Assembly (NCBI RefSeq): GCF_019059575.1
Contig: NW_024881504.1
Coordinates: 1,302,001-1,366,000, forward strand
DNA: 64,000 nt
DNA from: Amphibalanus amphitrite
Taxonomy: Eukaryota > Arthropoda > Thecostraca > Balanomorpha > Balanidae
Direction: 5' to 3'
Each line of letters starts with the position of its first letter. Positions within the stretch are counted from its first letter, which is position 1. Positions 2,266 through 63,496 of this stretch are shown one piece after another. Below the pieces are notes generated by a model. It was not told where the DNA came from. It did no database searches and saw only the letters and a program-made list of their open reading frames with translations. Made by a program: the position numbers and the translations under genes.

Positions 2266-3463
2266 TTAACCCGCGCCCTGGTGGGAGGGGGGCTATTTCC
2301 CCCCCCCCTCTAGACTTTTCGATATATCTCCAGAACCGCTGCGCCGATCATCACCAAACTTTCAGTACCCTCCCGGACATCAATTTTACACATTGTGACC
2401 AAATTTTTTTCCAAAGGCTATGATAGGTTGGCCAGAAATGACGTCAGAGTGACGTCATGTTCTGCCGTTTTCGACCCAAAAAAGGGTTTCGCGGGAAGAG
2501 CTGTCAGGCCTATAGCTTTGCAACTACAGAAAAACGATATAGACATAAAAGCTGCAGAATTGACAGGGCTACAAAACTGTTATCTCGGATTCTTAAAATT
2601 TTTGGATTTTGACCCCCAAAAATCAATAAATAGATTTTTTGAAAATACTAGCCGAAAAATCCAAAACGTTTTTGAATTTCGCAAAAACCGGAACATATGT
2701 GATGGTTCTTACCGCCTTCTATCCACATACCGAATTTCAGATTGATACCTCTTTTTTTTGGCGAAGTTATAGCGAAAAAACTGTTCAAAATTGATGACGT
2801 TAAATTTTCAAACTCAATTTTTAGCAATTCTAGACCCCGTAGCGCAAAAAAAAGACCACCATTAGACTCCCCGTGACGAGCTGCATCGAATCAATACCCA
2901 TTTTATGCAAAACTATCAATCTTGAAATTTGACCTTTTTTGACCTTTTTTGACCTGACCTTCACCAGAAAGTGACCTAAGCCGTACCTGATAGTCTTATA
3001 ACCAACACCATTGAGTTGGAAATGAAAAATTGGCCATAAAACATGCATCGCACAACCATAGTACCTAAAGTTAGGTTCATGTGACCTGACCTGTGACCCT
3101 TGGTGACCTGACCTGTGACCTGACATGGTATTGTCAGTGACCTCTTATAGCAACATATGTACTAGGCTCCTGACGCCCTATCGCTGATTTTCGACAAAAT
3201 GCGTTTTCTTCGGTGTTATAGCGCATTCCCTAGAAGACCCGTGAACGGTGAAACATTTTATCTTTGACCTGTACTGTGACGTCATCGGTGACCCCGAGGT
3301 CAATGAAATTTGGTTTTCCTCGACAAATTTGACAGGGCTATCGAACGCTGTTTGAAGTTTGTGGATCCGTCCAGTAGTTTCGGAGATGCGAGGGGGGGGC
3401 AAAAAAAAGCCCCCCCCCCCACCAGGTCGCGTTATAAACAGACCCCACCAGGGCGCGGGTTAA
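2266..3463. mobile_element. TTAA-flanked MITE (tag CCCTGGT), piggyBac-like
   Basis: It begins TTAACCCGCGCCCTGGT and ends ACCAGGGCGCGGGTTAA, a clear terminal inverted repeat whose outermost bases are the TTAA target. Both ends have G-run/C-run hairpins (about 2285-2312 and 3392-3420). The interior is non-coding and carries repeated AGGTCA/TGACCT motifs (2930-3125). TTAA targets with CCC-initial termini are typical of piggyBac-type elements; no transposase is present, so the assignment rests on the ends alone. Confidence 0.8.
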
Positions 3464-4348
3464 CCCTATTAGTGGCAGGCTCCTGGCTACCCCTATTAGT
3501 GGCAGGGGGGGGGGGCTGTTTACGAACCCCCCTTGATATCTCGAGATCTAACGGGCCGATTTTCAAAATTCAAACGGCATTCGATTTCGCTCAACGTGAT
3601 CTACATTTCTAAAAAATAAACATTAAAAAATGTCAATAGGGGGGGGGGTAGAGGGGGGTAAAAACGGGCAAATTGCAGATACATTTTAGACTGTTTATCA
3701 CGGCCAGGTTTCTGAACCAATCTTAACGCAACTTTTGCCGATCGATAGAAAATGAACCAGGAATTCACATGGATCCTAAATATATGCATTTTCAAAAATC
3801 ATAGGCGGATACAGATCATTGAGATTGGGGGTACACAAAAAGTATAGTAAATAAGGTTTTTGTTGGTACTGTTTCTAAAAAGGGTGGTAATGGTCTTGTT
3901 ATGTTACAATTTTCTTATGAGAGAACAACTAAAACTGTATTGGTCATGCATAGACGGTGTCAGGGCACCTATGTTGGGAGGTAAAACATAACCCCCCTTT
4001 TTGGACGCCTGGATCCGCCAATTATAGCAAAAACATGTCAAAAGAGGATGCACAATAACTGTTTATGTTATCACATGATACCTTTCATTCACTGTTCGTA
4101 AAACTGGTGCAGCATCGTGATCTTCGCCCAAATGACTCGCTTCACGAATAGGACCCCCCAATTCCCAGTGCTCTGGAGCCGCCCCTGGTAAAGTTATGAA
4201 CTTGAAATTTTTAGGGAATGTGCCCAATTTAGTTTTAGGAAAAGTCAGAAAATTTCAGCATCGTAGCTTCAGCGGTTTCGGAAATATTCCCGAAAAACCT
4301 GAGGGGTGGATGAAAACAACCCCCCCCCCCTGCCACTAATAGGGTTAA
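3460..4348. mobile_element. TTAA-flanked MITE (tag TATTAGTGGCAG)
   Basis: Starts TTAACCCTATTAGTGGCAG and ends CTGCCACTAATAGGGTTAA, a perfect terminal inverted repeat. It shares a single TTAA (3460-3463) with the preceding element. The left end has the tag twice (3464-3476 and about 3489-3501), then a G-run hairpin. The interior is non-coding. Confidence 0.85.
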
Positions 4349-4794
4349 GTCGGATTCCTCGAAAACAGGTGGTGATAGGAGGCTGAAATTTGGGCAACAG
4401 ACGTTCAACTTATCCATCCAAGACGGACCTTTTGACGTATCGCAAAAGAGTAAAGTCAATTCACGGACATCTTACGTTTGACCTTGGAGAGCAAGAAGAC
4501 TACTCACAACGGCAAGTGACCTAGTCAAGGGTAAATGGTCATGAAATGGTTACGTTTTTGCTAACAAAGCTCAAAGTTTTTCATAGATTTATTCCCGGAT
4601 CTCGTATGAAATCAGATCCAAGTAGATAGACGTACGACGAATGCTCTAAGACGTCGTCGACGTCGAAATCTATGTGACACGTCGAAAGTTACTCAATGAT
4701 TTCGAAGTCACATTTCGTCATTGAACCACCATTCTTCAGATTTCTGCCATTGAAATTATTATTTTGTTGTGTTGACTCTTATGTAATTATTATT
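4349..4794. other. Unassigned sequence
   Basis: No gene or terminal repeat recognised. A few isolated TGACCT-type motifs suggest old TTAA-element sequence. Confidence 0.4.
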
Positions 4795-5148: not shown

Positions 5149-5844
5149 TGTAATCCTTTTTCATGACTCATGCCATATTATTGCTGCAGTTTGTAGTCCA
5201 CTGTTTCATGTATTTGTGTTTCATTTGACGTGTCTGTAGTCATTTGAAATATACATCCAATCAAAGTCAACCACTACTTTCCTTTCGCAATGCTCGATGA
5301 CCGGTTAACAGAGCATATGAGTGACCGTAACAATTTTAAATATGCATTGAAACCGCACAACCTGCTGAAAGTGAATTGGCCGCTCCTTGCTACTTGATCC
5401 AGTGTGAAGCAAAAGCAAGATAAAGTCAAGTCGAGACTTGAGAAAACAGGAGCCGTCACTCGAGCCGAACCCGAGCAAAGCCACAGCAGTTTGCAATGTA
5501 TAAACCCCATTCACTTCTATGGGGATAGACAGGGCACACAAAGTGGGCTCGCCGGAGTTCAGCCCGCTCGGGCCCAGAGTAATCTCCATTATATTAATGG
5601 ATTCACTGCTCGGGCTTAAATTGGGCTAACGCCAATCGTCGCTCAACTAGGGCTAAACTACGGCTGTCCGGAGCTCGCAGAGCGGGCATACCTCCGACAG
5701 AGCATGGGCTTTAGTCGGCGTTTTTGTGTCATACGCCGACTTCAGGCCAAGCCCTAGCCGACTTTAGCCCGACTAAAAATCTCGGGGAATCCGCATTTGA
5801 GCTTGCTTGGGCCCGGAGCAAAATTGCTGGCTGGGAAGTCAGTG
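5149..5844. other. Unassigned region with small foldback structures
   Basis: No gene recognised. From about 5560 to 5820 the sequence is rich in self-complementary GGGCTTTAGTCGGCG / GCCGACTTTAGCCC strings (for example 5706-5720 against 5757-5770), consistent with a small decayed foldback element. Ends and target duplication are not clear. Confidence 0.35.
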
Positions 5845-6679
5845 GGAGAAAATTGAAATGCGCCTCTTTTGGACGAAAGACATTATAAACACTCCCAAAC
5901 ACTGAATTACAAGTGGTTTAGACACAATGAACATAAAAATGTGTCCGTGACCCCTGTTTATGCCCTGAGGTCATCTTAGGTCACGAATGGTATCTAACAG
6001 TTTTTCGCAAATAACTTTTGATAGAGGCATGCTAGAGCGATGAAAACGCCTTAGATGTGTTCAGCTCGACGATACGCATCGACTGATATGCAACATGACC
6101 CTTTCCGGTCAGGTCATGACCTTGACCTGAGGTCAAATTTTCAAGTTGACCTTGCAAGGTCAACTTATAGTTCATTCGATGCGTCTTGACAAGAGGAACA
6201 CGATGCCGGTAATAGTAAGCTCGTACAAGGATTGGGTCAAAAGTTATTGCAGAAAAACTGTTTCCGAAAAAATCGGCTATTTTTGCAGTTTTTGCCCCCT
6301 GCAGGCAAAACCGTTGACGTTAGGTCAAATCTGAGAGAACTATTCAGAAAGGGCGTTTATACGGCTATCGAATGCGCTTTTCCGCGGCGCTGTAGCTCTA
6401 TTGGTTCCCGAGTTATGCGTTGGCTTCTTGGAAATTGTCGACATTCTACCTGGAAATCGGCGAAGTTTTGCCTTCAATGACCTCTGGTGACCTGACCTTT
6501 GACCTGACCAAAAAATTGACCGAAGTGATTTCCTCATTATTTTTGACGCTCTTTCGAAGCCGCCTTCCGCTTATCGCTACCTGGCCCAGGAGTCGAGTTA
6601 GAAGGGGGGTGTTCAAACACCCCCCCCCCCTCCCCAGCAGGGCGTGGAAATCCAGGACCCCCAGCCGGGCGCGGGTTAA
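5845..6679. mobile_element. TTAA MITE, left-truncated (Y family)
   Basis: The body matches the complete element at 53820-54995 from its GGGAGAAAATTGAAA segment onward, including the AGGTCATGACCT palindrome (6111-6122) and the right-end hairpin with GGTGTTCAAACACC around 6605-6623. It ends GGGCGCGGGTTAA at 6679. The left third is missing. Confidence 0.75.
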
Positions 6680-7515
6680 CCCTCGCACTTGTGGGGAGGA
6701 GGAGGGGGAAGGGGTCGGATAAAACCCCATGTTTTTCCGCAAATTACTCGCGCAAAAAGCGGCCGATCGCGACGAAACTTTCGGTGCCCTGGTGATCATC
6801 AATTTTACATATAATCTAAAAATTTCATAAATCTGACCCAACTGACCTTTGACCTGTGGCATATTTCTCGAGACCATGTTTGGCCGGAATCGCGATTCGG
6901 CGTATATGCCAGCTCACATTATCCGCAGTTTCCAGTCTTTTTGTGGTTTTAAACGTTCAAATATGTGAAATGATGTTGGTGCTATGCATTATGGTGGGTG
7001 TCAAGGTCACGTGAAGGTCAAGTCAAGGTCATTGACCTTAAATGACCTCGGTTCACTTTTTCGAGTTTTACATGTTTCTAGGCTAGTTTTTGGAGCTGAA
7101 TTCGAATTTAGCAACCATTTGAACATTTATGAAGTAGTTTTGGTGCCTTCGTAACATGTTACGACGCCGTCGGTGGTAGCTGACACCTACTATGGATAGC
7201 CGGTAGGACGCGTACTGGTTGACCTGACCTGACCTGACCCGACCTAGCCTAAATGCATAAAGACATCATCTCTGATCAAAACTAACATGATATTTGTGAT
7301 CAGCACACCGAAAAACCCCATAACAGCTTTACTTTAAGAAGTTCTAGCAGGTCCCGATTTTCCCGACTTTTGGGTCATTGACCTGACCTGGAAGCTCAAC
7401 CAATGACCAAGGACCCTAAAATTTGGTATCATCGGTTTCCTCTCGTCACGGGCAGCACGCTCGTTTTTTCCGCGAAGCTCTAGCTCAGTCAGGGGCCGAG
7501 CGGCAGGGGGGATCC
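6676..7515. mobile_element. TTAA MITE, right-truncated (H family)
   Basis: Begins TTAACCCTCGCAC, sharing the TTAA of the preceding element. It follows the 17636-18519 copy through the AAAAAGCGGCCGATCGCGAC segment, the TGACC pentamer run (7220-7242) and the block before the right end, then switches near 7515 to sequence of another family. The right terminus is therefore missing or recombined. Confidence 0.7.
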
Positions 7516-8254
7516 AACTGATCCAGCCTTTGGGACCAGCTAAGGTTACGTTTTGGTGAAGGTCAGGTCAAGGTCAGGTCAATTTAGGTCAAATTTCAAA
7601 ATTGATATTTTTGCATAACATGTGTATTGATTCGATGCAGCTTGTGACGAGGAGTCTAATGGTGGTCTTTGTTTTGCCCTACGTGGTCTAGCATTGCCAA
7701 AAATTGAATTTAAAAAATTGACCTCATCATTTTTGAAGTTTTTTCGCTATAACTTGGTCGAAAAAACGAGATATCAATCTGAAATTTCGTATATAGATAG
7801 AAGACGGTAGGAGCCATCACATATATTCCGTTTTTCCGAAACTCAAAAAGGTTTTTGGATTTTTTGCTAATATTTATATATAACCTTTTTTCTGGTGGTC
7901 GAAGCTCAAAAATTTAAAAATTCCAAGATGATGGTTTTGTAGCCCTGTGAATTATACACCTTTCATTTACTGATCATTTTTATGTATCTTCAAAGCTGTA
8001 GGCCTGACGGCTCTTCTTGCGAAGGTCTTTTTTCAGTCGAAAATGGCAGAACAAGACGTCATTCTGACGTCATTTGTGGCCAACCTATCATAGCCTTTCG
8101 AATTGTTTTTAGTCACAATGTGTGAAATTGATGCCCGGAGGGATCCTGCATGTTTGGTGGCGATACCTGCAGCTGTTTAGGAGATATCGACGGAAAAGGA
8201 CAGGGGGGCCGTTTCGCCCCCCCCCCCCACCCACCCCTACAGGACGCGGGCTAG
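7516..8254. mobile_element. TTAA MITE fragment (reverse of the 2266 family)
   Basis: From about 7930 onward it is the reverse complement of the 2310-2900 part of the first TTAA element. It ends in a G-run/C-run hairpin (about 8203-8231) and GGACGCGGGCTAG, a mutated GCGGGTTAA. The left part (7516-7700) matches sequence flanking the LTR element at 11945-11985 and 16829-16990. Confidence 0.65.
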
Positions 8255-10185: not shown

Positions 10186-10194
10186 GTATTCAAA

Positions 10195-11506: not shown

Positions 11507-11985
11507 TTAACCCGCGCCCCGTTGGGCTCTGCCGAGCAACGCGCCCCGTTGGGGTGGGGGCATTTTGGCCCCCTAAGATCTCGAGAACCACGCAACCTAG
11601 CGACAAGCGGCAAACGGTGTTGGATAGCCCTATCAGGGAACTACCTTGTGACCCAATTTTACTGACCCAGGTCAAACCGATGACGTCACAGGTCAGGTCA
11701 AAGGTCCAATTTTCACCGTTTACAGGCATTTAAAAAAATGCGTTGTAAAATCGAGTAAAATGCATTTCATTGAAAATCATCGATGGGGAAATGTTCTTCA
11801 AACACATATTTTGCTATTTGAGGTCACTGATACCAGGTCAGGTAACAGAGGTCAGGTCACTGGGGGGTCACAATATGAAAGTGTCGTGTGATACATGTTT
11901 TATGGCCCATTTTACATGACAAATGCGATTATGTGGGTCAGGCAGCCTTTGGGGCCAGCTTAGGTCACGTTTCGGTCAAGGTCAG

Positions 11986-12313
11986 TGAAGCGATTTAGAA
12001 CTCCTGCGTCCACGTAACCAAGAAAACTATATTCCGCTCTCCTCCGAGCCTCTCAGCCAACTGCCCAGCAATCACACTCCCAACCAGACCATAGCTCTCA
12101 CGCACACGTCATCGCGCATCATCATTAGCCAATCACATTGTCATACGTCATCCCCTGTGCAACTGATCAGGGGGCGTAACCCGGCCGCCCCGACGTCCGG
12201 CGGCGGCGGCGGATGACTCACTCTGGGTCACCGGGTCACGTCCCGCAGCTCAGTCTCGCCGCGCGCCTGACTCATACGCTACTCATATTCCTTATTGTGT
12301 CCATCATGCTACA
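11986..12313 (-). repeat. 3' LTR
   Basis: 328 bp; reads TGTAGCATGATGG...CGCTTCA on the minus strand. Directly inside it on the minus strand is a short purine tract, CCAGGGGGTGA, a plausible polypurine primer. Confidence 0.92.
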
Positions 12314-12351
12314 TCACCCCCTGGTTCTAAAGAACCACATCACACATCATG

Positions 12352-13506
12352 TCATTCACTCAACTCATCAAGTACATCCCCCGTCACAACAATACCATAT
12401 CTGTCTGGTTCCCGTCGCTCACGTGCGCTGCGTCGCAATGTAACGGTCGCGGGTGATTCGCCCTCGGACAATTCGCCGTCTATTAGCTCGCTCGATTCCG
12501 TTGACACCTCAGACTGGGTCGGTGGATCGACCCTCGCGGTCTGATCGACGGTCGGCGGCCGCGTGTGTGTCTCCGTTACATCAGTCGGAAGTGTTGCCAT
12601 ATACATGCCATCACATTCATTGTCACTGTCCTCGCACCGCTCCGCCGTCGGGGCGTGCACAGTCACCGGTCTCGGGGCATCAGTCATGGTCAAACGGTGG
12701 CGGAGATTGCGCACATGACGCGGCACATTGTCGACTTCGACTGTTTGAGCCGACACGACGCCTGTCACAGTTCCCTCGTCCGATTTCACAAAACATCGGT
12801 CGCCCCGCCGCCGGACCCACACTTTGTCCCCCACCTGGTATACACCTGGTGTTTTCAGCGGCAGGGCGTCGCACTGTTGTCCATTTGTTCGTCCGCGGGG
12901 CGTCACGTCAACGTCGCGGCCAGGGTGTCGGAACACCTCGTTGATCGGAGCTGTTGCCGGGTCGCTGCCATCTTTAGGTGTCACGTTGTAGCGGTGGACT
13001 GCCTCAGCGACGGAGCAGGCCTGCCGGGCCACCATCACTTTGATGGTCCGGTGATGGCGTTCTACAACGCCGTTACCGCCGGGCTCATAGGCGGCGCGGA
13101 ATCGCATCGCCACGTCCCAGCGGGCCGCGAGCGCCATCATAGCCCGGCCGCGGAACTCCGTCGCATTGTCCGTGAGTATTTCGGCCGGGGCTCCACGCTC
13201 TAGAAACACGTCCTCGAGATGCTGGACGATCTCCAGAGCCCCCGACCGGCGCAGCCGGCGCCAGATGGCGTATCGCGACGGCCCGCAGTCCACCAACGTC
13301 AGGTACGGGTGGCCGTGCAGGTGGGTGACGTCCATGGCCAGGCGATCCCACGTACGTTCCGTCTCAAGTGACCCACCAAGCCAGCGTTCCGGAGCCGGGT
13401 CAATCGACGCGCACGTCTGACACCGCCTGACCACGTCCCGCACGGCCGTCTTCGTGACGCGCCTCACCCCCAGCTCCCGTCGGGCGTACCACAACGTCCT
13501 CCTCAC
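12352..13506 (-). pseudogene. Integrase domain of Gypsy-like pol
   Basis: The 384-residue frame begins just after an in-frame TAG (13512-13510) that falls within the HHCC zinc finger: the His-containing GH lies before the stop, while the Cys pair (RRCQTC) follows. The catalytic core shows the three acidic residues of the DDE family: D in AMDVTHLHG, D in ILTDNATEF, and E in GNGVVERHHRT. A basic C-terminal module (GDKVWVRRRGDR) and an acidic Ser/Thr-rich tail follow. Integrase inserts the cDNA copy into host DNA. With the stop it would be made only by readthrough, so I class this copy as broken. Confidence 0.85.
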
Positions 13507-13509
13507 GCC

Positions 13510-13965
13510 CTAGTGGCCAATGTTCTCGTGTATGGCGCGGATGTCGCCCGGCGAGGCACTCGATGTGATGGCTGCGACAGCAGCCGGTGGTGACTTGTCG
13601 GGCGAGTCGGCGGCCGGCCGATCGGCGGCCTGTAGCCAGGCGTTGGGCACCCGCGTCATCTCATCGGCGCGGTTGGCAGCTGAGCCGACCAGTTCGATGG
13701 TGACCTCAAGTTCGTACTCGGCGACCAGCTGACGGAAAACAGCCACGCGCCGTCGGATAAGCATTTCGGACTGCCCCTTGGTGCGCAGCCTTGCCTTGCC
13801 CGACAGCGCATCGCTCAGCCAGCGGTGCACAGTCACCGAGTCCGTCCGGAGCGTCAGGCGACGGAAGCCCCATGCCAGGGCCATATTGACGCCGTTGAGA
13901 GCGGCGTCCAACTCCGAGATGTTGATGTGAACGTCCCGCTCAGCCGCAGCCAGGACGCATCCTCG
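13510..13965 (-). pseudogene. RNase H distal part and integrase N-terminus
   Basis: This frame holds the later RNase H motifs (SELDAALNGVNMAL, LRTDS, then ANRADEMTR), continuing the RNase H that starts with VWTDAS in the preceding frame. It is in the -1 frame relative to PR-RT; comparing both frames places a single-base indel around 13950-13975. It ends at the TAG in the integrase zinc finger (13512-13510) and is in frame with the integrase. RNase H removes the RNA strand during reverse transcription. The indel could be a real mutation or a sequencing error. Confidence 0.8.
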
Positions 13966-15809
13966 ATGATGGCGTCTGTGACAGGGTCGGCTAGGACGAC
14001 GCCGCGAGCGATGGAGCTGGCGTCAGTCCACACGGTGACATTTGACCCTGTCACACACCACTGGCCGCATGCCGGGTCACAGGCTAGCACCCTTCGCGAC
14101 ACTTCATCCACTTGGCGTTGCAGCTCCTCATTGACGATCGGAGTGTCCCAGTCCGGGCTGAGACGGTTGGCTGTCCGCTTCATCCACGCAGCGGCCGGCC
14201 GTAGCCAGCCCGCGACCGGCACGTGAGATGTCAGTTGGCCGGCCCACGCGAAGACAATTCGTCGCGTCAGCACAGGTGGAGGCTGCGTGGGTGACCCTCC
14301 GTCCCTGGTCCACTGGAGCGCCGGCCCGTCACTTTCGGCGACACGGAGGCCCAGCATGCGTGCGCCGCTCGCAACTCGCTCCGGCGGCTTACACTCGAGT
14401 CCGAAACGGGCAAAATGCTGGGCCACCTCGTCAGCTGAAACGGCTGCTTCGTTGACCAGCAGATCATCGGCGTAGGGCCGCACCGCCTCAGCCAGCCTCG
14501 GGTTCTGCGCGAGCACCTCCCTGACCACCGACTTCATGATCAGAGGCGCTATGGAAAGCCCAAAGCCGACCCTCGTGAGGCAGTATCGTCGCCCCCGCAC
14601 GATGACCGTCTGGTACGGCCACAGGGCCGGGTCCACACGGAGCTGAAGAAAAGCTTTCTTCAGATCGAGGACCGCGACCCGGCGGCCGTGGCGTCGCCAT
14701 CGTCGAAGCTCCTCCACGCAGACGTCCGCGTCAGCCGTGTGAGGCGTCGGGTGTTGATTAAGCTCTCGATAATCAAGCACCGGCCGCACCTTGTTCTTTG
14801 CCGCCTGAGTTACCGCCATGAACGGGAGCAGTCCCTGTGCCGGACCGCACACCGTCTCGTCATATTCACGCAGCCAGCCCTCACTTATCCACAATGACAG
14901 CTCGGCATCGAATTTCTCTCGCGCACCCCTCGGTATGCCGTACTGAGCCGTGGAGTTGCGAAGCGGTGGCGGGTCCACACCGCCCGCCCACTTCCAGCGA
15001 ACCGTCCACACCCCGGCATCGAACACTGCCGTGAAGTCGGTCTCGTTGATCCTCAACTCTGGCCCCATGTCGACCGCTCGGCACGCCTCCCGCCCCGGTG
15101 GCGCCTCACGCTGCACGCCCGCAGCCGTGCCGACCGCTCGGCACGCCTCCCGCTCCGGCGGGGCCTCACGCTGCACGCCCGCAGCCGTGCCGACCGCTCG
15201 GCACACCTCCCGCTCCGGCGGAGCCTCACGCTGCACGCCCACAGCCGTGCCGACCGCTCGGCACACCTCCCGCTCCGGCGGGGCCTCACGCTGCACGCCT
15301 GCAGCCGTGCCGACCGCTCGGCATACCTCCCGCTCCGGCGGGGCCTCACGCTGCTCCGTAGCAGCCGGGTCTTCGCTTCCGAAGCGAACAGACCCCCCAC
15401 TCACACTTACGCCACGCAGAGCGTCGATGCCCGTCATACCTAGCAACACGTCCACGCCTAACAACCGGGCCGGTACGACGACCGCCCGCACATTCACTGT
15501 CGTTCCGCGCACACCCAGGCTCACCGCAGCCTGCCCACAGCACCGAACTGGGCTGTCGTTGACAGCCATCAAACTGGTGTCACTCCGCTCCCATCGGGAC
15601 ACCACGCCCTTCCACACCACTGTCTCACTACATCCCGTGTCGACCAGTGCTCGGCACCTGTGCCCATTCACGGTGATGGCGATGATGGGCGTTCCCGGGC
15701 TGTTGCGGCGGCTGGCGACGGCGGAGCCCGTGGCGCTGATGTAGCGCCGTCGCCACGTCCGTTTGGGCAGAGCCGGGCGATGTGGCCCATCTGGCCACAG
15801 GTCCAGCAC
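13854..15809 (-). CDS. pol: Protease, reverse transcriptase and RNase H start of Gypsy-like pol
   Basis: The open frame starts at 15809, but translation most likely enters it by -1 frameshift at 15767-15761. Order: aspartic protease (ALVDTGCSETVV), a linker with five 20-residue repeats, RT with RPVLDYRELN, LDLKKAFLQL and the catalytic PYADDLL box, then the RNase H start VWTDASS. It copies the element RNA into DNA. The frame stops early at 13854 because of the indel near 13960, so RNase H is split. The RT palm motifs are all present. It is Gypsy-like by motif and order, though divergent; a host function is unlikely. Confidence 0.88.
   Translation of the reverse strand: MLDLWPDGPHRPALPKRTWRRRYISATGSAVASRRNSPGTPIIAITVNGHRCRALVDTGCSETVVWKGVVSRWERSDTSLMAVNDSPVRCCGQAAVSLGVRGTTVNVRAVVVPARLLGVDVLLGMTGIDALRGVSVSGGSVRFGSEDPAATEQREAPPEREVCRAVGTAAGVQREAPPEREVCRAVGTAVGVQREAPPEREVCRAVGTAAGVQREAPPEREACRAVGTAAGVQREAPPGREACRAVDMGPELRINETDFTAVFDAGVWTVRWKWAGGVDPPPLRNSTAQYGIPRGAREKFDAELSLWISEGWLREYDETVCGPAQGLLPFMAVTQAAKNKVRPVLDYRELNQHPTPHTADADVCVEELRRWRRHGRRVAVLDLKKAFLQLRVDPALWPYQTVIVRGRRYCLTRVGFGLSIAPLIMKSVVREVLAQNPRLAEAVRPYADDLLVNEAAVSADEVAQHFARFGLECKPPERVASGARMLGLRVAESDGPALQWTRDGGSPTQPPPVLTRRIVFAWAGQLTSHVPVAGWLRPAAAWMKRTANRLSPDWDTPIVNEELQRQVDEVSRRVLACDPACGQWCVTGSNVTVWTDASSIARGVVLADPVTDAIIEDASWLRLSGTFTSTSRSWTPLSTASIWPWHGASVA
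15064..15363 (-). repeat. 60-bp in-frame tandem repeat, five units, in pol
   Basis: Five near-identical 60-bp units encode the 20-residue unit QREAPPEREVCRAVGTAAGV between protease and RT. As 60 is a multiple of three, copy number can change without breaking the frame. The units differ at a few bases only. Confidence 0.92.
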
Positions 15810-16528
15810 CGCAACGGTGGCCGGCGAGCAGTTCCTCTGGTCGCCCGCTGTTGCTGTACCGATGGTGGCGGCAGTTGGACGGCAGCCACCGGTGCAGCCG
15901 CTCTCTCCCTGGCAGTTATCGCCAACGTCGACCGGGCGATGGCGACCGCTCGCTCCAGGGTGAGCGTGCCATCTCCAACGCTGTTTCGTACCGTCAGCCG
16001 CACTTCCGCTGGCAGGCCTTGTAGGAAATGAACCGTCATGACCGTGCTGGACACATAGCCGATTAGAGACATCAGACGTTTGATGGAGCCCAGGTAAGCA
16101 TCAACAGACTCACCCGGCTCCAGACGTCGACGATATAGCTCTGACATTGCGGCGTCCGGTCCCATGGCAAAGGCGCTGTGCAGCTTGTCACGGACGATCT
16201 CAGCGTCTCGTTGTTCGGTCTCGGAGAGGCTGGCCCAAACTTCGTACGCCTGGTCCCGCAGGCGCGTCGGCAAAACAGCGGCCAGGGAAACGCGTCTCAG
16301 GGCGCACAGCTGTTTCGCCTGCTCCAGCCATTTGACGACGTCACCGGTACCGTCGAACTCTGGTATTGCCCGCAGATCGAAAGCAGGTGCAGGAAGTTCG
16401 GGTTCCGCCGCATTGGTATCGACCACCGCGGCACCACTCTCCTCTTCCACGTCAGACATTGTCACAAGCACTGATTGTTCTGAGAATGGCCGAAATAGCT
16501 TTAAGCGATTTAGAACTCCTGCGTCCAC
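15668..16528 (-). CDS. gag: Gag of Gypsy-like retrotransposon
   Basis: Up to 286 residues. The first ATG (16528) lies inside the 5' LTR; the next in-frame ATG at 16459 (MSDVEEESG) just beyond the LTR is the more likely start, giving about 264 residues. The central part is helical in character, typical of retrotransposon Gag (for example WLEQAKQLCALRRVSL). Near the C-terminus is one CCHC zinc knuckle, CWTCGQMGHIARLC, used to bind RNA. A low-complexity Pro/Ala/Ser tail follows. The stop lies 100 bases past the frameshift site, so most ribosomes make Gag and a minority Gag-Pol. The frame is intact. Confidence 0.88.
   Translation of the reverse strand: MDAGVLNRLKLFRPFSEQSVLVTMSDVEEESGAAVVDTNAAEPELPAPAFDLRAIPEFDGTGDVVKWLEQAKQLCALRRVSLAAVLPTRLRDQAYEVWASLSETEQRDAEIVRDKLHSAFAMGPDAAMSELYRRRLEPGESVDAYLGSIKRLMSLIGYVSSTVMTVHFLQGLPAEVRLTVRNSVGDGTLTLERAVAIARSTLAITARERAAAPVAAVQLPPPSVQQQRATRGTARRPPLRCWTCGQMGHIARLCPNGRGDGATSAPRAPPSPAAATARERPSSPSP
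15714..15767 (-). promoter_or_regulatory. -1 ribosomal frameshift signal, gag to pol
   Basis: On the minus strand the heptamer CCCAAAC (15767-15761) sits in the gag frame as C CCA AAC, exactly the X XXY YYZ rule. Slipping gives CCC AAA, which is the pol frame. After 6 bases a GC-rich 10-bp stem follows: GGCGACGGCG (15754-15745) pairs with CGCCGTCGCC (15723-15714), loop 21 bases. Heptamer, frame, spacing and stem all agree with known -1 signals; function is inferred. Confidence 0.85.
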
Positions 16529-16828
16529 GTAACCAAGAAAACTATATTCCGCTCTCCTCCGAGCCTCTCAGCCAACTGCCCAGCAATCACACTCCCAACC
16601 AGACCATAGCTCTCACGCACACGTCATCGCGCATCATCATTAGCCAATCACATTGTCATACGTCATCCCCTGTGCAACTGATCAGGGGGCGTAACCCGGC
16701 CGCCCCGACGTCCGGCGGCGGCGGCGGATGACTCACTCTGGGTCACCGGGTCACGTCCCGCAGCTCAGTCTCGCCGCGCGCCTGACTCATACGCTACTCA
16801 TATTCCTTATTGTGTCCATCATGCTACA
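16501..16828 (-). repeat. 5' LTR
   Basis: 328 bp, same length as the 3' LTR. The only difference I found is the second base from the inner edge (CTTAA here against CTTCA). No TGG-initial primer-binding site is visible next to it on the minus strand (AGCTATTTCGGCC follows). Confidence 0.9.
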
Positions 16829-17635
16829 GTCAGGTCAAGGTCAGGTCAAATTAGGTCAAATTTCAAAGTAAATGTTTTTGCATAAAATGGGTATCGAATC
16901 GATGCAGCTTGTCACGGGGAGTTCAATGGTGGTCTTTAATTTGCCGTACGTGGTCTAAAATCGCTAAAAATTGAGTTAAAAAATTTGACGTCATCATTTT
17001 TGAACAGTTGTTTTCGCTATAACTTGGCCAAAAAACGAGATATCGATCTGAAATTTAATATGTATATAGAACAGCGCAGGGACTATCACATTTATTCGGT
17101 TTTTTTTTCGAAATTCGGAAACATTTTGGATTTTTTTAAAGTTAAAAAAAATCATTTTTTTTGTATTTTTTGGGTCAAAAACCCGAAATTTTGAAAATCC
17201 GAGATTGTAGTTTTGTAGCGCCGCTTTTTGTCTACTAGACCATATAAAGAACTTTGAAATTGCTTGATAACTGTAGATTTGGTGAGCGTTTCAAGATTGC
17301 ATGTTTTTTGCTCATTTTTGCTCGAACATGACCTCAGTTTGACCTCAATAATTCCTGACCTAAGGTGACCTAAGACTTGAAATTTAGTGTGAAGGTGTAA
17401 AATTGATGCCCGGGAATGTACTGAAAATTTGGCGGCGCTGCGCGCCGTCGTTTTCTTGCTATTCAGGAAAAACCACAGGGGGGGGGGGCAAAATGCCCCC
17501 CTTACGGGGCGGGGGTTCCGCGCCCCACAGGGGAAGCCCTTATTCCTTATTCATAGACCCCTTTCGTTTTTCTGCAATATCTTCTAAACTACTAGACGTA
17601 TTGTGGCGAAATTCAGTACCTTGGGCTGCATCAAT

Positions 17636-18519
17636 TTAACCCTCGCCCGTATGGGGGGAGGGCGTCGAACGCCCCCCCCCCCTCGGTTTTTCGCGAATAA
17701 CTCGCGTAAAAAGCGGCCGATCGCGACGATACTTTCAGTACCCTCGTGTTAATCAATTTTACACCTATCCTGAAATTTTCATGAACCTGACCTTAATGAC
17801 CTTTGACCTGTGACCTACTTTTCGAGACCATGTTTGGCCGGATTCGCGATTCGGCGTATGTCGGCTCGCATTAGCCGCGCGTTTGCAGTCTTTTCGTGGT
17901 TTTAAGCGTTCAAACATGGGATATGATGTTGTGCCCATGCATTAGGGTGGGTGTCAAGGTCACCGAAAGGTCAGGTAAGGTCATTGACCTTTGATGACCT
18001 CGTTTCACTTTTTCGAGTTTTACATGTTGCTAGGCCAGTTTTTGGAGCTGAATTCGAATTTAGCAACCATATGAACATTTACGAAGTAGTTTTGGTGCCT
18101 TCGTAACATGTTACGAAGCTGTCAGAGGCGGTTTCACCTACTACGAATACCCTTACTGGTTGACCTGACCTGACCTGACCCGACCTGGCCTAAATGCATG
18201 AATATATCATCTGTGATCAAAACTAACATGATATTCGTGATCAGCACCCTGAAAAAACCCATGGCAGCCAGCTTTACGACTTTCTAACAGGTCCCGATTT
18301 CCCGACTTTTGCGTCATTGACCTGACCTGGAAGGTCAACCGATGACCTAGGACCTTAAAATTGGATATCATCGGCTTCCTCTCGTGACGGGCAACACGCT
18401 CGTTTTTTTCCGCGAAGCTCTAGCTCGATCAGGGGCGAAACGGCAAGGGGAAGGGTCCAACGGACCCCCCCCCCCTATACGTTCGCGACTGGAAAAACAC
18501 CAATACGGGCGAGGGTTAA
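17636..18519. mobile_element. TTAA MITE, H family, complete
   Basis: Starts TTAACCCTCGCCCGTA and ends TACGGGCGAGGGTTAA. Terminal hairpins carry GGCGTCGAACGCC (left) and GGGTCCAACGGACCC (right). Subterminal AAAAAGCGGCCGATCGCGAC and a run of TGACC pentamers (18160-18184) are present. The same element in reverse occupies 43186-44074 with conserved length (884 and 889 bp). There is no coding capacity. Confidence 0.88.
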
Positions 18520-18528: not shown

Positions 18529-18655
18529 TTAACCCTCGCCCTGGCAGGAGGGGGTCGATGCGCCCCCCCCCCTAAGGTTTTTCGAAGATAGCGTAAAAAC
18601 GGCGACGCGCAGCGCCCTCAAATTTGGCACAGCCTGTGGGGCACCCATTTTACAT
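18529..18655. mobile_element. TTAA MITE, left end only
   Basis: TTAACCCTCGCCCTGGCAGG, hairpin with GGTCGATGCGCC and the GC palindrome GGCGACGCGCAGCGCC, then an abrupt change at about 18656 into a different repeat. The start is 9 bp after the end of the previous element. Confidence 0.7.
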
Positions 18656-44262: not shown

Positions 44263-45480
<1,218 letters not shown>

Positions 45481-48509: not shown

Positions 48510-49693
48510 TTAACCCGCGCCCCACTGGGGTCTGCGTATAACACGCCCTACTGGGGGGGGGGCTATTCATAGCCCCCCTCCTAACTCCGAAACTACTGGG
48601 CAGATCGTCAAAATTCAAACGGCGTCTGATAGCCCCGGAAAAACTGTCGAGCTAAACCTAATTTCATTGACCTCGGGGTCACCGATGACGTCACAGGTCA
48701 GGTCAAAGTAAAAATTATTAGCATTTTGGCTTGTTCACGTTTTGGGCTCTGGCCGCCGTCTTACAAGTCAGATCAAGCTCATTTTTGGATCACACACTCG
48801 TGAACAGATGCTCTAGATACCCTGAGTGTACCAAGTTTGTACTTTGATTTTCAGGTCAAGGTCAGGTCATCACAGGTCACGAAAATATTATATCATGAGT
48901 CGGTCACGTGACACATGTTTTATGGTCCATTTAGGTCCGAGATTTCGAATTTGATGTCGTCTGTGTCATTGGAGGTCATTTTGAGTTGAATTTAGCTTAG
49001 GTCAGGTCACTTTCAGGTCAAAAAAGGTCAAATTTTGAAGTTGAATTTTTTCAGCAAAAAAGGTGTCTATTGGATGCAGTTGGAGCTCAGAAACACGATG
49101 GTGTTATTTATATTGGCGTACGATGTCAAATACGTGCTGAAAAATTGATTTGGAAAATTAATAATTGTGAATTTTTTGCAATAATGCGTAAAACTTGGCC
49201 ATTTTTGAAGATATTTAGCTAAAACTTGCCAGAGTTAGTTATAATAATGCGTTCTATCACATATATTCCGTTTTTTTCGAAAAGTCAAAAACTTTTTGAA
49301 AAAAATGTAAAAAGATAAATTTTGGATTTTATTATGATAAATTTTCCAAATTTTCAAAAATTCGAAAAGCCGAGATGGCAGTTTAATAGCGCAGTCTATT
49401 CTGAGTCCTCTCATGCAAAGAAATTGGATCTAGCTTAAAAACTGAGCTCTTGGGAGCGATTGCCGTGGTTCAATGTTTTGCGTCGAAATCGGCCGAACAT
49501 GACGTCACTCTGACGTCATTTCCGGCCGACCTATGGTATATACGAAGTTCTTTGACACAAGGTGTCAAATTGATGCAGCCTAAGGTACTGAAAGTTTGGC
49601 GTCGATACGTCAAGCGGTTTGGAAGTTATTGCAGAAAAACGGGAGGGGGGGCTATAAATAGCCCCCCCCCCCCCCCAGTGGGGCGCGGGTTAA
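48510..49693. mobile_element. TTAA MITE, U family, complete
   Basis: Starts TTAACCCGCGCCCCACTGG and ends CCAGTGGGGCGCGGGTTAA. Hairpins GGGCTATTCATAGCCC (left) and GGGCTATAAATAGCCC (right) show the loop sequence shared by both ends. The left end has an extra spacer with a second tag copy (CCCTACTGGGG). AGGTCA motifs run at 48852-48880 and 49001-49030. Confidence 0.9.
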
Positions 49694-50436: not shown

Positions 50437-51284
50437 TTAACCCTCGCCCCGTTGGGCGGTGGGCAATAAAGCCCCCTGTGTATTTTCCTGAATAGCAAGA
50501 AAACGGCGGCGCGCAGCCCCGCCAAATTTTCTATAGGTACCCGGGCATCAATGTAACACCTTTACACAAAACTTCAAGTCTTAGGTTACCCTAGGTCAGG
50601 AGTTATTGAGGTCAAACTGAGGTCATGTTCGAGCAAAAATGAGCAAAAAACATTATATCTTGAAAGCTCACAAAAGCTACAGTTAACAAGCAATTTCAAA
50701 GCTCTATATCTGGTCGTGTAGAGAAAAAACGGCGCAGAAATTTGACCTAATTTGACCTGACCTTTACCTGGACCTTCACCAGAACATAACCCAAACTGGC
50801 CCCCAAGGGTTGCCTGACCCACATAATCGCATTTGTCATGTAAAATGGACCAGAAAACATGCATCACATAATAGTTATCTTCATATTGTGACCCTCAGTG
50901 ACCTGACCTCTGTGACCTGACGTATCAGTGACCCTAAATAGCAAAATATGTGTTTGACGAACAATTCCCCATCGAAAATAATTGTTATTCATCGATTCCT
51001 TATCAATGAATGGCATGCATTTTACTGGATTTTATAACACATTTCTTGAAATGCCTGTAATCGGTGAAAATTCGACATTCGACCTGAACTGTGACGTCAT
51101 CGGTTTGACCGAGGTCAATGAAATTGAGCCAAAAGGTAGTTCCTCGTTGGGGCCATCCAACACCGTTTGCTGCTTGTCGTTATTTTGCGTGGTTCTCGAG
51201 ATCTTAGGGCCTAGGGGGGGGGGAAATGCTCCCCCCCCCCCAATGGGACCGATGCTCAGGAGACCCTAAGGGGGCGCGGGTTAA
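50437..51284. mobile_element. TTAA MITE, W family, complete
   Basis: Starts TTAACCCTCGCCCCGTTGGG and ends GGGGGCGCGGGTTAA. It is the uninterrupted reverse counterpart of the element split by the LTR retrotransposon at 11507-17518 (shared CCGATGACGTCACAG, GTTTGC(C/T)GCTTGTCG). The right end has an added spacer with a second tag. The GC palindrome is at 50504-50523. Confidence 0.82.
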
Positions 51285-53171: not shown

Positions 53172-55250
53172 TTAACCCTCGCCCGCACATGCCATTTTCC
53201 CATCCTAGAACGCACATGGGGGGGGGGGGGTGGTTGCCACCCCCCGCGCCATTTCGTTCCTGTTGGAGATAGAGCTTAGCGGTAAAGACCAAAAAGATTC
53301 TTTGGGAAGAGACAAATCCAATGATACCCAGTTTTACCTTCTCAGGTCAGTCATTGACCTTCCAGGTCAGGTCAAACTAAAAATGTTGCTGTTTTAGGTC
53401 ACCGTTGGATATCAAGCGCGCTGCTTGTCATATACCGATGACGATGCCGTTTTCTGGTGCCAAGCCAGCTAGAACCTCTTTGTCACACTACCCGACCAGG
53501 TTTTTGCTGCTAAGGTCATCTCAGGTCAAGTTAGGTCAAGGTCAATAATATGTGTTTGTATGTCTGTGTGTGTCTGTGTGTATACTGATGTGTGCACCGA
53601 TTGTTTATGTGTCCATATTACATGAAATCATGATCTGAGAAGCTTTTACCAAAAATGTAGTCAAAAAATTTCAAAAAAAGTAAATTCAGCTTGCCTAAAA
53701 CGCAATTATCTTAGATGACCTAGGTTGACCTTGACCCTGACCTTGACCTCTGTACATCGTCGAACATGTTTCATGATAGGTGGGAGGTAGGATTGGCATA
53801 AAAGGCCGAAATCAAGGTGTTACCCGCGCCGGGCCGGGGGGGGTGTTTGAACACCCCCCCCTGCGGTTTTTCGCAGATATCTCAAAAACGGCGGCGCGGA
53901 GCGCCGCCGTTTTTGGCACACCTGTTTGTGCATCTTTTCCGCACATGTTGTGAAAATTTCAGACCCAGGTCACCTTAGGTCAGGTCACCAGGTCACGCCA
54001 AGTGACCTCACCTCAGAAAAAATAAGAATGCTCGTCATAGCTATACCGATTGATCGATTGCCTTGAAACTTTCAGCGATTGATTAGAGCAACATTATCTA
54101 TAAAATGGATATCTCGGAATTTTGATATCGGTGACCTAAGGTCAGGTCAATTTTGCGACCTATCCATTATAAGTCAATGGGAGAAAATTGAAAAGCGTCT
54201 GTTTTGCACGAACGTTATTCTAGACACTCTCAAACATCGAGATGTACGTAAAATGGACTCACTGAACCGGAAAATGGCAACTGTGACCCCTCGTTATGTC
54301 CCCGAGGTCATCTCAGGTCACGAACAGAATCTAACAGTTTTTCGCTAATAACTTCTGATAGAGACGTGCTAGAGCGCTGAAAACGCCTTAGATGAGTTCG
54401 GCTCGACGTTGCGGATCGACTGATATGCAACATGACCTTTTCCGGTCAGGTCATGACCTTGACCTGAGGTCAAATTTTCAAGTTGACCTTTCAAGGTCAA
54501 ATTATAGTTCATTCGACGCGTCTCGACGAGAGGAACACGATGGTGGCAAAAGTAATGTCATGACTCTTTTGAGTCAAAAGTTATTGCCGAAAAAACGTTT
54601 TTCGTAAAAACGGCTATTTTTGGAGTTTTTGCCCCCTGGAGGCTAAACCGTTGACCTGAGGTCAAATCTCAGAACATTATTCAGAAAGGTCTGTAAAAGG
54701 GCTATCGAATGCGCTTTTCCGCGGCGCTGTAGCTCTATCGGTTCCCGAGATAGCCGTTGGCAGTTTCCAAAATGTTGAAATAGTGGACATTTGACCTTTG
54801 GTGACCTCTGGTGACCTGACCTTTGACCTGACCCAAAAAATGACCGAAGTGTTTTCGTCCTTATTTTGGACGTTCTTTCGATTGCCGCTTACCGCGTGTC
54901 GCTACGTGGCCCAGGAGCCGAGTTAGAAGGGGGGGTGTTCAGACACCCCCCCGGCCCGGCGCGGAATCTCAGAGCACCGGCCCGGCGCGGGTTAAAAGCT
55001 CACAAGGCCCATAGCCAACGCAAGATGTTGAGAATTGGCCATTTGGGTCATGACATGACCTGAAAAACAAGGTCATATCTCCGAAACCAAAAACCACAGA
55101 AACTTGAAATTTTCAGTGGACATCAAGAAAGGATAGAGGAGCAGCTATACGAAAAATCAGCCTTCTAGCTCTAAAAATGTTGAGTGCAGAGCAGAAAGAC
55201 TACCTGGGGGGGTGGCAACCCCCCCCCCCCCATGTGCGGGCGAGGGTTAA
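53172..55250. mobile_element. TTAA MITE, X family, with a nested element
   Basis: Starts TTAACCCTCGCCCGCACATG and ends CATGTGCGGGCGAGGGTTAA; hairpins GGTGGTTGCCACC and GGTGGCAACC. It interrupts CR1-like ORF2 at a TTAA. Without the nested element it is about 0.9 kb. The left end has the tag twice (GCACATG at 53185 and 53212). Confidence 0.88.
53820..54995. mobile_element. TTAA MITE, Y family, nested in X
   Basis: Left end TTACCCGCGCCGGGCCGG (TTAA mutated to TTAC), right end CCGGCCCGGCGCGGGTTAA with the tag twice. Hairpins GGTGTTTGAACACC and GGTGTTCAGACACC. The GC palindrome GGCGGCGCGGAGCGCCGCC is at 53890-53908. The AGGTCATGACCT palindrome is at 54448-54459. Related copies: 5845-6679 and 26249-27010. 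Confidence 0.87.
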
Positions 55251-59504: not shown

Positions 59505-59600
59505 GGTTGTAGTTTTTCGAGATTGTAGCAGTATCACCCGCCGCCGGCTTCACTCACTCTCGGTCGGTCACCTCAATCACTCGCAGTCACACAAAGGCTG

Positions 59601-59814: not shown

Positions 59815-61016
59815 TTAACCCGCGCCCCAGTGGCGGTCTCAGCCAACTTCGCCCTAGTGTGGGGGGGGGGGGCATATGTTACCACCCACCTCTAACTCAA
59901 AAACTAAGAGGGCTAGAAAGACGCGGCAAAAAGCAGTCGATAGCTGTTGATGCGTACGTTTGAAAGTATTTCGGTCATTTTTCATCTTAGAGCAATATTA
60001 AGGGTCAACAAAGGTCATCAAAGGTCAAAATTTGCGAATTGTCATATTTTTCAGAAAACATGCCATTATCTCAGGAACTATGATAGCTAGAAAAACGCTG
60101 GGAAAAGCAATCGATAGCTTTTGAACTCTTCTTTTGATAGCTTTTAAACTCTTCTTTTGATAAGGTCATTATCAAAAATGACCTCAGGTCAACGGTTTAG
60201 CCTCCAGAGGGCAAAAACTCCAAAAATAGCTGTTTTTAAGAAAAGTGTTTTTCGACAATAACTTTTGACTAAAAAAAAGCTAGGTCATTTCTTATGCCAG
60301 AATCGTGTTCCTCTCGCCGAGACGCGTCGAATGAACTATAATTTGACCTTGAAAGGTCAACTTAAAAAAATTTGACCTCAGGTCAAGGTCATGACCTGAC
60401 CGGAAAAGGTCATGTTGCATATCAGTCGATGCGTCTCGGCAAGACAAACACAATGAGGCCAACCCCAGCGTTCTATCTCTTTCCAATCGAGAGTTATTGG
60501 CAAAAAACTGTTTGTAGCCTCAAATGACCTCGGATGACCTTTCAAGAGGCTATCAGCAAAAAAGACACCTTGGTCGTCACGGGTGGTCCAAACCATTGTT
60601 ATCCTGAAATATTTGGACTGTTCCTATGCGTACACACGTATCTAGAGGCATTTTCGTTTTTCTCCATTGACTTATAATGGAAAGGTCACGCCACTGACCT
60701 GACCTTAGGTCACGCATATAAAAAATCCGAGATAAACAAATTGTAGGCACCCATAACATCATGTAATCCACCAAGTTTGAAACCTCTCTGACAAACACTG
60801 CAGGCTGGACTTGATTGCAAACTTTATTTTAGGCTTGGTCAGTTAACTTGACCTAGTGACCTGGCCTGATATGACCTGGGGTCAACAATTTCACACATTG
60901 TCCAAAATTGATGTACCAAAAGCTACCCCAAGCGGCGCGGCGCTACGCGCCGCGGTTTTATATTTATACGAAAAAAAAACGCGACAGGGTGGTAACATAT
61001 GCCCCCCCCCCCCCCC
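59815..61016. mobile_element. TTAA MITE, M family, reversed copy, right end damaged
   Basis: Starts TTAACCCGCGCCCCAGTGG with the long tag-spacer-tag end and hairpin GGGCATATGTTACCACCC. The body is the reverse of 33663-34844, including AGGTCATGACCT (60386-60397) and the GC palindrome CGGCGCTACGCGCCG (60945-60959). After the second hairpin (60990-61016) the expected GGGTTAA is absent. Confidence 0.82.
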
Positions 61017-62485
61017 ACTGCACAATGGGCGATCCGGCCGGTGTAGCCTCGCGAAACCTATCGGCATTCATAACATCCATGTTTTTGAAGCTAGAAGCAC
61101 AATATTTAGGAGCAACCTTCTTGAATATCCAATGACCATATGTTTTAAATAAGGAGTATCTCTTTTAGGATTTGTGCTCTGTTGCGAGCTTGCAATTTGC
61201 TCAATTGCCGCTCGAATAACGCATGAATACTTTTGAGGGTAGGTAGAAATTTATGACTATATGAGCTGAATAGGACATTGAAATGGTGTGTACCTCCGTA
61301 GAAAATTGCTTCCAAGCCAACTTTTTATTCAAACGATTATGCCCTACCAATTTATACATATCATGAAACAGCGTAAATCTCGCCCGGCAAGACCCCATTT
61401 CATAACGTGACCCAAGCAGCGGGTTTGGTTTTTGGTAAATAACTTCGCAAAAAATGGCCGTAGAACCACGATTTTGACATCGTCGTGTTCGCCTTGCTCA
61501 GGCGCGTCGAATGTTATACTTTTTGTTCAGGTGAGGCCACCGTAAGGTGTTGACCTCGAGTCAAGGTCAGGTCAGAGGTCAACAAATCACGAAGTTGGTT
61601 GAAGGAGGTCATATCGCATATCATTCGATTCGGCAGGTCTTCCGGAGTCCATTGGTGACCTTGTCGACTCTCTAGCTCAATTTGATCGGGAGTTATTGAC
61701 GAAAAACTCGTATGACCCTAGTGACGTCATAAATGACGTCATGCAAGGTCAACAATGCAAAAATGCAGCATCAGATCTTGCAAGGAGTGCATGAAGTAAC
61801 GATTCCATGTACCTGAGACAATTGAATATCATTCCTGGCGCCAAAATAACAGTTTCCATATTTCCCCATTGACTTATAGGTGAGGTGACGTGACCAAACT
61901 GACTTTATGTGACATTTAGGAAAAATCTGAGATATTTAAGTTGTAAGACATGTAAAGGACAATAAGTCCTGCAAGTCTCACCTCCCTGTGAAAGTTACTC
62001 TGGCACTGAGAGCGTTGCAAGGTTGCGACATCTGAGGATCGTGCAGAGGTTCATTTATGACGTCATAGGTCGGTGACCTGACCTGACTTGAAAGTGCAGT
62101 TGGTGTCACAAGATGCAGCGTGCATCAAAGGACAGGTATGCCAAGTCGCAGCTCTCTATTGCCTGTGCGTTTTGAGCTGACGCGAAAACACCCTTTGGGG
62201 CATTTACCACTTGTGCTCAAGTGCACCAAGCCACGGCCAACCCTTAGAAGAAAAAGTGTCTGGATGCCAGGGCTGCAAGTGGCTGCAAAATTTCACTGGC
62301 TCACCTGATAGATAAAGTCTTAGTGCATGCGATAGGGGAAGCGGGGGTAGCACCGCCATGTGGGCAACACCGCCATCCCCTCCATCGGTAAAACTCTGAA
62401 CTGTAAATGTAAACATCCGCCATTTCGGTGTCCGAACGGAAGCGGGGCGCCGCGTGAGGTAGTTTTCGCTAAGATTTATTTGATT
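61017..62485. other. Unassigned; O-type fragment at 61420-61920
   Basis: 61420-61920 is the reverse of 40000-40500 (TGACGTCATGCAAGG, TTGATCGGGAGTTATTG). 61017-61400 and 61930-62485 show no gene. At 62340-62380 a GGGGTAGCACCGCCA string recurs that also appears at 63710-63740. Confidence 0.45.
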
Positions 62486-63496
62486 TTAACCCGCGCACCG
62501 ACGGGGGGGGGGCGGATATCCGCCCCCCCTGAGGTTTTTCGCGAATAGCGGGAAAACCGCGGCGCGTAGCGCCGCGAAATTTGGTATGACTATAACCTCA
62601 TCAATTTTACACATGGTGTGCAAGTTTGAACCTCCTACCCTTTAAGGTCAGGTCACCAGGTCACTTTGAATGACCCAACCTCAAGTCACTTTTTTGCAAC
62701 TTTGTCACCGTGCCAGAGCTACAGTAAATGTCGGAGGCCTTTGAAAGTCGCAGGATATTATTAGGTCATTAGTAGCTACAATTTGTATATCTCGGAATTT
62801 TGATATCGGTGACCTAAGGTCAGGTCAATTTCGCGACCTCCCCATTATAAGTCAATGGGGGAAAAATCAACTCCCTATTTTTACCACTAAAACGGGTCGG
62901 AATGGCCCCATATACCATACATGACTTCATATACGATCAACCTTCACTACCTTGAGGTCTGTTTTGCTGTTGGGCAGCTGTGAGGTCATGTGACGTCATC
63001 AAAGGTCACCAAAGGTTTTTGGCCAATAACTCCGTACAGGAACAAGATACAGACGCGTGGATGGTCTCATTGTGTTCAGCTCGTCAAGACGCATCGAATG
63101 ATATACATGATGACCTCGAGGTCACGTGACCTGAGGTCAACCTTTGACCTTGACCTTTCGAGGTCAACATATATATCATTCGATGCGGATTGACGAGAGG
63201 ATCACGATGATGCCCTTAGTTTGTTCCTATCTTGACTAATTCGAAAGTTATTCGAGAAAAACTCTCTCCATATTTAGCGCCGCCATTTTGACTTTTTCGA
63301 CCCCTGTGACGTCATCTTTGACCTGACCTGAAAATGACCTTAGTAAAAATTGTAGATCTTGACCGTGCGTATCCGATGCCGTTTACCGCTTGTCGCTATC
63401 TTGCTTCGTTCTCGAGATCTCAGGGGGGGGGCGGTCATCCGCCCCCCCCCCCGTCGGTACTAAGTTGGCGCAGACCCCCGTCGGTGCGCGGGTTAA
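62486..63496. mobile_element. TTAA MITE, complete (tag ACCGACGG)
   Basis: Starts TTAACCCGCGCACCGACGGG and ends CCCGTCGGTGCGCGGGTTAA. Hairpins GGGCGGATATCCGCCC and GGGCGGTCATCCGCCC. The GC palindrome CGGCGCGTAGCGCCG is at 62562-62576. TGACCT/AGGTCA motifs cluster at 63111-63166. The right end has the tag twice, separated by about 25 bp. Confidence 0.9.

Follow-up and report, generated by a model that had tools for sequence, protein, structure and literature searches.

The window, a 64-kb stretch of the Amphibalanus amphitrite genome (GCF_019059575.1, contig NW_024881504.1, positions 1,302,001 to 1,366,000), was surveyed for TTAA-flanked elements, the complete ones lying between positions 2266 and 63496. 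These are very probably non-autonomous members of the piggyBac superfamily, similar to miniature inverted-repeat transposable elements (MITEs) and mostly ~0.85-1.2 kb in size, which descend from one ancestor, radiated into many families and are presumably moved in trans. The motif TTAACCC occurred 30 times, whereas 9.4 occurrences were expected from 100 shuffles (standard deviation 3.2, maximum 17). Of these 30 sites, 26 were followed by a G-run, a core and a C-run over the next 80 nt, compared to 11 of 424 other TTAA sites; part of the latter may be decayed ends. TTAACCC was present at both ends of 11 elements, and 15 elements had two recognisable ends, thus the number of at least 12 two-ended elements in an earlier sequence-only reading was about right. 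Four of the fifteen have one decayed end (33663-34844, 53820-54995, 59815-61014 and 11507-17517), the defect being a CCT tip in the first and a TTAA short of one A in the second. Nine of the 11 complete elements had a size of 848-1223 bp, the other two contain further repeats and reach ~2.1 kb. Elements and fragments together cover ~21.5 kb or 34 % of the window, according to an interval list set by hand. As expected of MITEs, the elements are non-coding and short, possess inverted ends and occur in several copies of similar size, and they exceed the usual MITE size of <500 bp given in the accessible text of PMC2872659.

End profiles were built from 15 left ends (LE) and 17 right ends (RE), which they recovered by construction. 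A search of the window with these profiles added left ends reaching the tip at 2223, 8250 and 17517, all on the minus strand, and a truncated left end at 61014, and no additional full right end. There were 33 matches to the left and 31 to the right model, the remainder being partial or cross-matching the other end type. The pattern of tip plus G-run had no match in viral and genome contig collections, from which the window's own genome was possibly excluded.

Anatomy and insertion of the elements

Thirteen elements were parsed one by one, and their ends were sorted into left and right by reading. Each of the 13 had one left and one right end, as had two more by profile. From the tip inwards, the left end consists of TTAA, a head of the CCC(G/T)CGCC type, a tag, a G-run, a short core and a C-run. 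In the right end TTAA, head and tag are followed by a spacer, a second copy of the tag, a G-run, the core of the left end and a C-run. Variants of the head were CCCGGCA in two right ends and CCCTATTAG in 3460-4348. The terminal inverted repeats (TIRs) were read directly, with CCC at 25 of the 26 ends and CCT at one. In all 13 right ends the second tag copy fitted best at an offset of 26 or 27 bp (25-28 allowed; 5-8 of 8 bases match). In left ends the tip and the centre of the palindrome are 25.5-33.5 bp apart, and right ends have this centre 21-31 bp deeper (n=13). Most elements had a core alike at both ends; in 43186-44074 it was nearly the reverse complement and in 50437-51284 only loosely alike. 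An asymmetric end plan as in piggyBac of Trichoplusia ni (T. ni), with an insertion and a duplicated motif in the right end and a palindrome common to both ends, was present in 13/13 elements. When single ends were tested for direct repeats with no more than one mismatch, 17/30 TTAACCC sites were marked; because the test also marked 78/424 control TTAA sites and called some left ends, a permutation of the tags was used instead.

These observations support the sequence-only reading in its TTAA edges, constant order of parts, family-specific tags and non-coding bodies, and in the assignment to one TTAA-targeting superfamily of piggyBac type. Its shared end plan stood with regard to the order of the parts, but the two ends of an element are not alike, one tag facing two. 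The proposed hairpin of G-run and C-run was confirmed in its components, but is really a palindrome that is interrupted and has a core specific to the family.

TTAA was present at both ends of 12 of the 13 parsed elements, and TTA at one end of the thirteenth. Insertion was read from an empty site: element 53172-55250 interrupts the open reading frame (ORF) of a long interspersed nuclear element (LINE) on the minus strand. With the element cut out and a single TTAA kept, the LINE frame was open across the junction, with 149 codons before and ~187 after it, beyond which the LINE continues in a different frame. This one site documents an insertion into TTAA with duplication of TTAA. The flank of 17636-18519 was homologous to a relative of 48510-49693 that has TTTGAC instead of TTAA at this place. 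Neighbouring elements have one TTAA in common at three junctions (Table 1) and perhaps at ~17515; as the neighbours abut in this way, the TTAA of a tip was the target for the next insertion. A TTAA target duplication also occurs in Kolobok, the other TTAA-duplicating superfamily, and the elements might be its non-autonomous derivatives. This is highly improbable, for Kolobok termini are 5'-RR..YY-3' according to the portion of PMC9587614 at hand, in contrast to the CCC tips in the window, and both the asymmetry of the ends and the position of the palindrome fit piggyBac. Membership in Kolobok was rejected on its termini.

Table 1. Elements of the window and selected parts of their ends
Feature	Positions	Strand	Remarks
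Complete element	2266..3463	+	LE 2266, RE 3463; tag CCTGGTG; adjoins next, TTAA 3460-3463 in common
Complete element, most divergent lineage	3460..4348	-	Tag TATTAGTGGCAGG, whole tag duplicated in RE; without AGGTCA
Element without LE	5836..6679	+	RE 6679; core TGTTTGAACA; TTAA 6676-6679 in common with next
Element, RE tip lost	6676..7524	+	LE 6676; ~84 % identity to 17636-18519, tag different
Element split by LTR retrotransposon (~11986-16828)	11507..17517	-	RE 11507; LE 17517 with decayed tip; both cores CATTTTG
Complete element	17636..18519	+	Tag CCGTAT
LE only, no RE assigned	18529..18662	+	Tag CCTGGC
Element, LE lost	24451..25094	+	RE 25094; tag CGGCA
Two-ended element	33663..34844	+	Tag CCCAGTG; LE tip altered to CCT; weak, short palindrome (CATATG only)
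Complete element	35790..36718	-	RE 35790, LE 36718; both ends have the identical core GCGTTAAACGC
Outer RE tag TTGCTGGGG of 35790-36718	35802..35810	+	Inner copy 27 bp on, 35829-35837
RE palindrome GGGGGCGTTAAACGCCCCC of 35790-36718	35844..35862	+	Centre 60 bp from tip
LE palindrome GGGGGCGTTAAACGCCCCC of 35790-36718	36677..36695	-	Centre 29 bp from tip
Complete element, 2,074 bp	39222..41295	+	Includes stretches repeated elsewhere in the window
Complete element	41967..43189	-	TTAA 43186-43189 in common with next
Complete element	43186..44074	-	93 % identity to 17636-18519, tag the same
Complete element	48510..49693	-	Tag CCCACTG
Complete element	50437..51284	+	Three tags match only partly
Complete element inside LINE ORF	53172..55250	-	Encloses nested 53820-54995; frame rejoined on removal
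Element nested in 53172-55250	53820..54995	+	Tag CCGGGCCG; only TTA remains of the left TTAA
Two-ended element	59815..61014	-	RE 59815; LE tip decayed; 91 % identity to 33663-34844
Complete element	62486..63496	+	Tag CACCGACG; LE core GCGGATATCCGC

The window also contains retroelements of animal type, with LINE endonuclease and reverse transcriptases as well as a long terminal repeat (LTR) element with integrase, protease and reverse transcriptase. An LTR retrotransposon at 11986-16828 with identical 326-bp repeats is nested in one of the MITEs; it looks recent because of these repeats and a flanking GTCAG duplication, which was read by eye. Simple repeats comprise a long GA/CT dinucleotide repeat at 44222-45000, which several frames translate into ORFs of ER and SL repeats, a long tandem array of a 21-bp unit at 28010-29360, likewise open in several frames, and degenerate arrays of short period at 1095-1480 and 4785-5147, the first of the AAAAGTCAAA type. 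Within the window, Rfam at the gathering threshold yielded no family and a search for tRNA yielded none.

Covariation of tags and cores and descent of the bodies

Families differ in their tags and palindrome cores, which match within an element. Tags of 8 bases were compared in 13 elements, excluding 11507-17517 and 59815-61014, and the offset search was granted to the permuted pairs too. Within elements, an average of 7.46 of 8 bases matched between left and outer right tag, 6.38 between outer and inner right tag, and 6.69 between left and inner right tag. The mean between elements was 3.45-3.65, and none of 100,000 permutations reached any of the three observed sums. The match of the palindrome cores was also not reached in 100,000 permutations (n=13; cores cut with a hand-tuned pattern, either strand allowed). 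In element 39222-41295 the inner right tag fits the left tag, while the outer one differs from it. Among close pairs, an interior identity of 0.83 was accompanied by 1.00 for the head and 0.60 for the tag (n=5 non-independent pairs, all those usable at 0.8-0.9 after exclusion of interiors <100 nt); at an interior identity of 0.94 the tags were identical (n=3), and the lower bins of this comparison are near the level of random alignments. The larger divergence of tags than of interiors in these pairs, too few for a test, could be taken as a trace of gene conversion or template switching between the two ends, which would create the match within an element in place of selection by a shared transposase. 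This origin is rather unlikely, since the match is confined to tag and core while the layouts of both ends and the spacer of the right end are preserved, and some elements have a partial, end-specific mismatch of their tags.

The bodies were examined beyond the ends, using bases 57-210 of left ends and 93-330 of right ends, with leave-one-out profiles and exclusion of near-identical twins. Compared with profiles of other families, 15/15 left and 16/17 right interiors scored above all of 300 shuffles. As the interiors match the profiles of other families, the families share an ancestor and inherited the end plan, and 3460-4348 is the most distant branch. Global identity in 15 chosen family pairs was 61-94 % in 12, and 53-59 % in three, which is near the random level. 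The sequence-only reading was thus correct in that the bodies have diverged, but bodies differing over most of their length are nonetheless related. Unrelated elements might instead have converged on one end plan through the same type of transposase, with captured host DNA as bodies. Strongly different tags, cores and parts of bodies would agree with such a convergence, as would the three pairs at the level of unrelated DNA and element 3460-4348, which is devoid of AGGTCA and has a hardly matching right interior. Convergence is nevertheless very improbable given the matches of interiors outside the region of transposase sites and the identities in 12 of the 15 pairs. A 13-base anchor, TAACTCGAGAACC, occurred 12 times versus 3.75 in mononucleotide shuffles, a weak indication of a repeated body module. 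An imperfect palindrome of ~150 nt was observed mid-body in 33663-34844, 59815-61014 and 62486-63496.

AGGTCA arrays in the element bodies

Most bodies are packed with the hexamer AGGTCA, the half-site of nuclear receptors. Fifteen elements with a combined 14,963 bp contained 220 copies, ~30 times the expectation of 7.0 from a first-order Markov model (standard deviation 2.5, maximum 14). Outside this count were 3460-4348, with no copy, and 39222-41295, with 18 copies. The density was at least 12.0/kb inside and 1.3/kb outside the hand-set element intervals; the inside count of 243 excludes 39222-41295, whose length remains in the denominator. Most copies read inward, with 49 AGGTCA and 25 TGACCT in the left halves and 26 and 100 in the right halves of 14 elements, numbers that serve as description and not as a test, the copies being related. 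The spacing of AGGTCA peaked at 5 and 10, and short (AGGTC)n slippage could contribute to the arrays. TGACGTCA was also denser within elements (14 inside, 9 in the ~44 kb outside).

AGGTCA-rich blocks are retained between families. With the motif masked before alignment, 113 of 179 AGGTCA in 12 family pairs were aligned with an intact copy in the partner, compared to 39/190 summed over nine control hexamers masked likewise. In unmasked alignments 72 % of AGGTCA were kept, the first rank among 31 common hexamers; the mean over all hexamers was 21 %. Retention was weak in the masked pairs of 2266-3463 with 48510-49693 and with 50437-51284, each keeping 3 of 13 AGGTCA. This falls short of proof that the hexamer as such is under selection, because the flanks within 14-20 bases also exceed the background in conservation (0.53-0.73, background 0.56, hexamer 0.70-0.81; 8 pairs) and isolated AGGTCA sites (n~16) lack a clear conservation peak. 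A speculative and rather doubtful explanation is that a binding protein, either of the host (nuclear-receptor type) or encoded by an element, kept the arrays through the radiation by aiding opening, read-through transcription or synapsis in the germ line. The elements would then carry two selected cis-codes, with quickly changing transposase tags at the tips on the one hand and a constant code for a host factor in the body on the other.

End recognition and comparison with known systems

The ends are most likely recognised by a piggyBac-type transposase acting in trans, which would contact each of them in two ways: the core domain would read the tip together with the family tag, while the palindrome with its family-specific core between G-run and C-run would be read by a dimer of the C-terminal zinc-binding domain. 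The second tag copy of the right end, ~27 bp further in, may dock a second transposase dimer, which would give the asymmetric synapsis of left and right end that has been suggested for piggyBac of T. ni. The element would then be cut and pasted into a TTAA, duplicating that site. Three tag copies and two cores would stay matched in each family because mismatched ends do not synapse, and new families would emerge when tags and cores shift jointly with transposase lineages.

Several observations weigh against this interpretation. DDE_Tnp_1_7 (PF13843) is the transposase domain of the piggyBac superfamily, and no piggyBac transposase was detected in 19 scanned ORFs of the window, of which 10 belong to the 36 element ORFs with 75 aa or more and nine are others. 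The ten element ORFs had no match above the curated cut-off, a weak ADD_DNMT3 hit (E 0.087) being below it; the nine others showed retroelement domains, unrelated domains or nothing. Outer and inner tags of the right end agree at just 5 of 8 bases in 4/13 elements (17636, 39222, 43186 and 50437). The permutations take the 13 elements as independent and overstate this independence, because the elements are partly related; for instance, 17636-18519 and 43186-44074 represent one tag. The right interior of 3460-4348 was equalled or beaten by 4/300 shuffles. Finally, not every member of the superfamily has the plan: piggyBat of Myotis lucifugus, whose membership is certain, is without the repeat plan in the accessible part of PMC11707139. 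Like the window elements, piggyBat has a motif close to the tip and, after it, an imperfect palindrome, which is bound by a CRD dimer, but its repeats of motif plus palindrome are inside the left end and its right end lacks a palindrome, according to the same excerpt.

The elements are of interest mainly as a source of natural data on the specificity of ends, and for their AGGTCA arrays. Each family may be regarded as a natural end pair in which the sites that, by analogy with piggyBac, the core domain (tag) and the C-terminal domain (core) would read were both rewritten and still match. A genome-wide set of elements together with the transposases would reveal how piggyBac-type transposases change their specificity and whether the asymmetry of left and right ends is ancient. 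The retained AGGTCA arrays make selection on MITE interiors testable, a question left open in the available text on the coral CMITEs (PMC2872659).

CMITEs of Acropora resemble the window elements in TTAA, CCC tips, families with different TIRs, an interior more conserved than the TIRs, and tandem arrays. Variable TIRs around a conserved interior are not new, as they were published for these coral elements. CMITEs differ in their size of ~100 bp, and the portion of PMC2872659 at hand does not describe an asymmetry of the ends, a duplicated tag or a palindrome. Among the literature matches listed, which did not cover subscription journals and Repbase, we found no covariation of three tags and two cores and no AGGTCA arrays in piggyBac MITEs. 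Poly-G-flanked palindromes in piggyBac MITE ends were also absent from the matches listed, with no search aimed at poly-G ends.

The sequence-only reading knew of no description of the modular end structure for piggyBac MITEs. That this structure is undescribed was not supported, as it equals the asymmetric plan of piggyBac, in which an insertion and a duplicated motif distinguish RE63 from LE35 (PMC7351741, in its accessible sections). Chen et al. reported, in the part of the article at hand, a CRD dimer on the piggyBac palindrome and the need for an asymmetric end pair in cells. The window elements differ from piggyBac in the absence of a recognisable gene, in the many tags within one 64-kb stretch, and in a palindrome of G-run and C-run around a short core instead of TGCGT...ACGCA. 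They are like T. ni piggyBac in the TTAA target, the CCC tip, a left end with motif and then palindrome, and a right end with insertion and duplicated motif before the palindrome. In the piggyBac ends printed in the available pages of PMC7846023, we measured a motif repeat of 27 bp, compared to 26-27 bp in the window, and a palindrome centre at 25 bp that lies 28 bp further in in the right end, compared to a shift of 21-31 bp. Because layout, 27-bp repeat and palindrome shift agree, the end plan of these elements is piggyBac's own.

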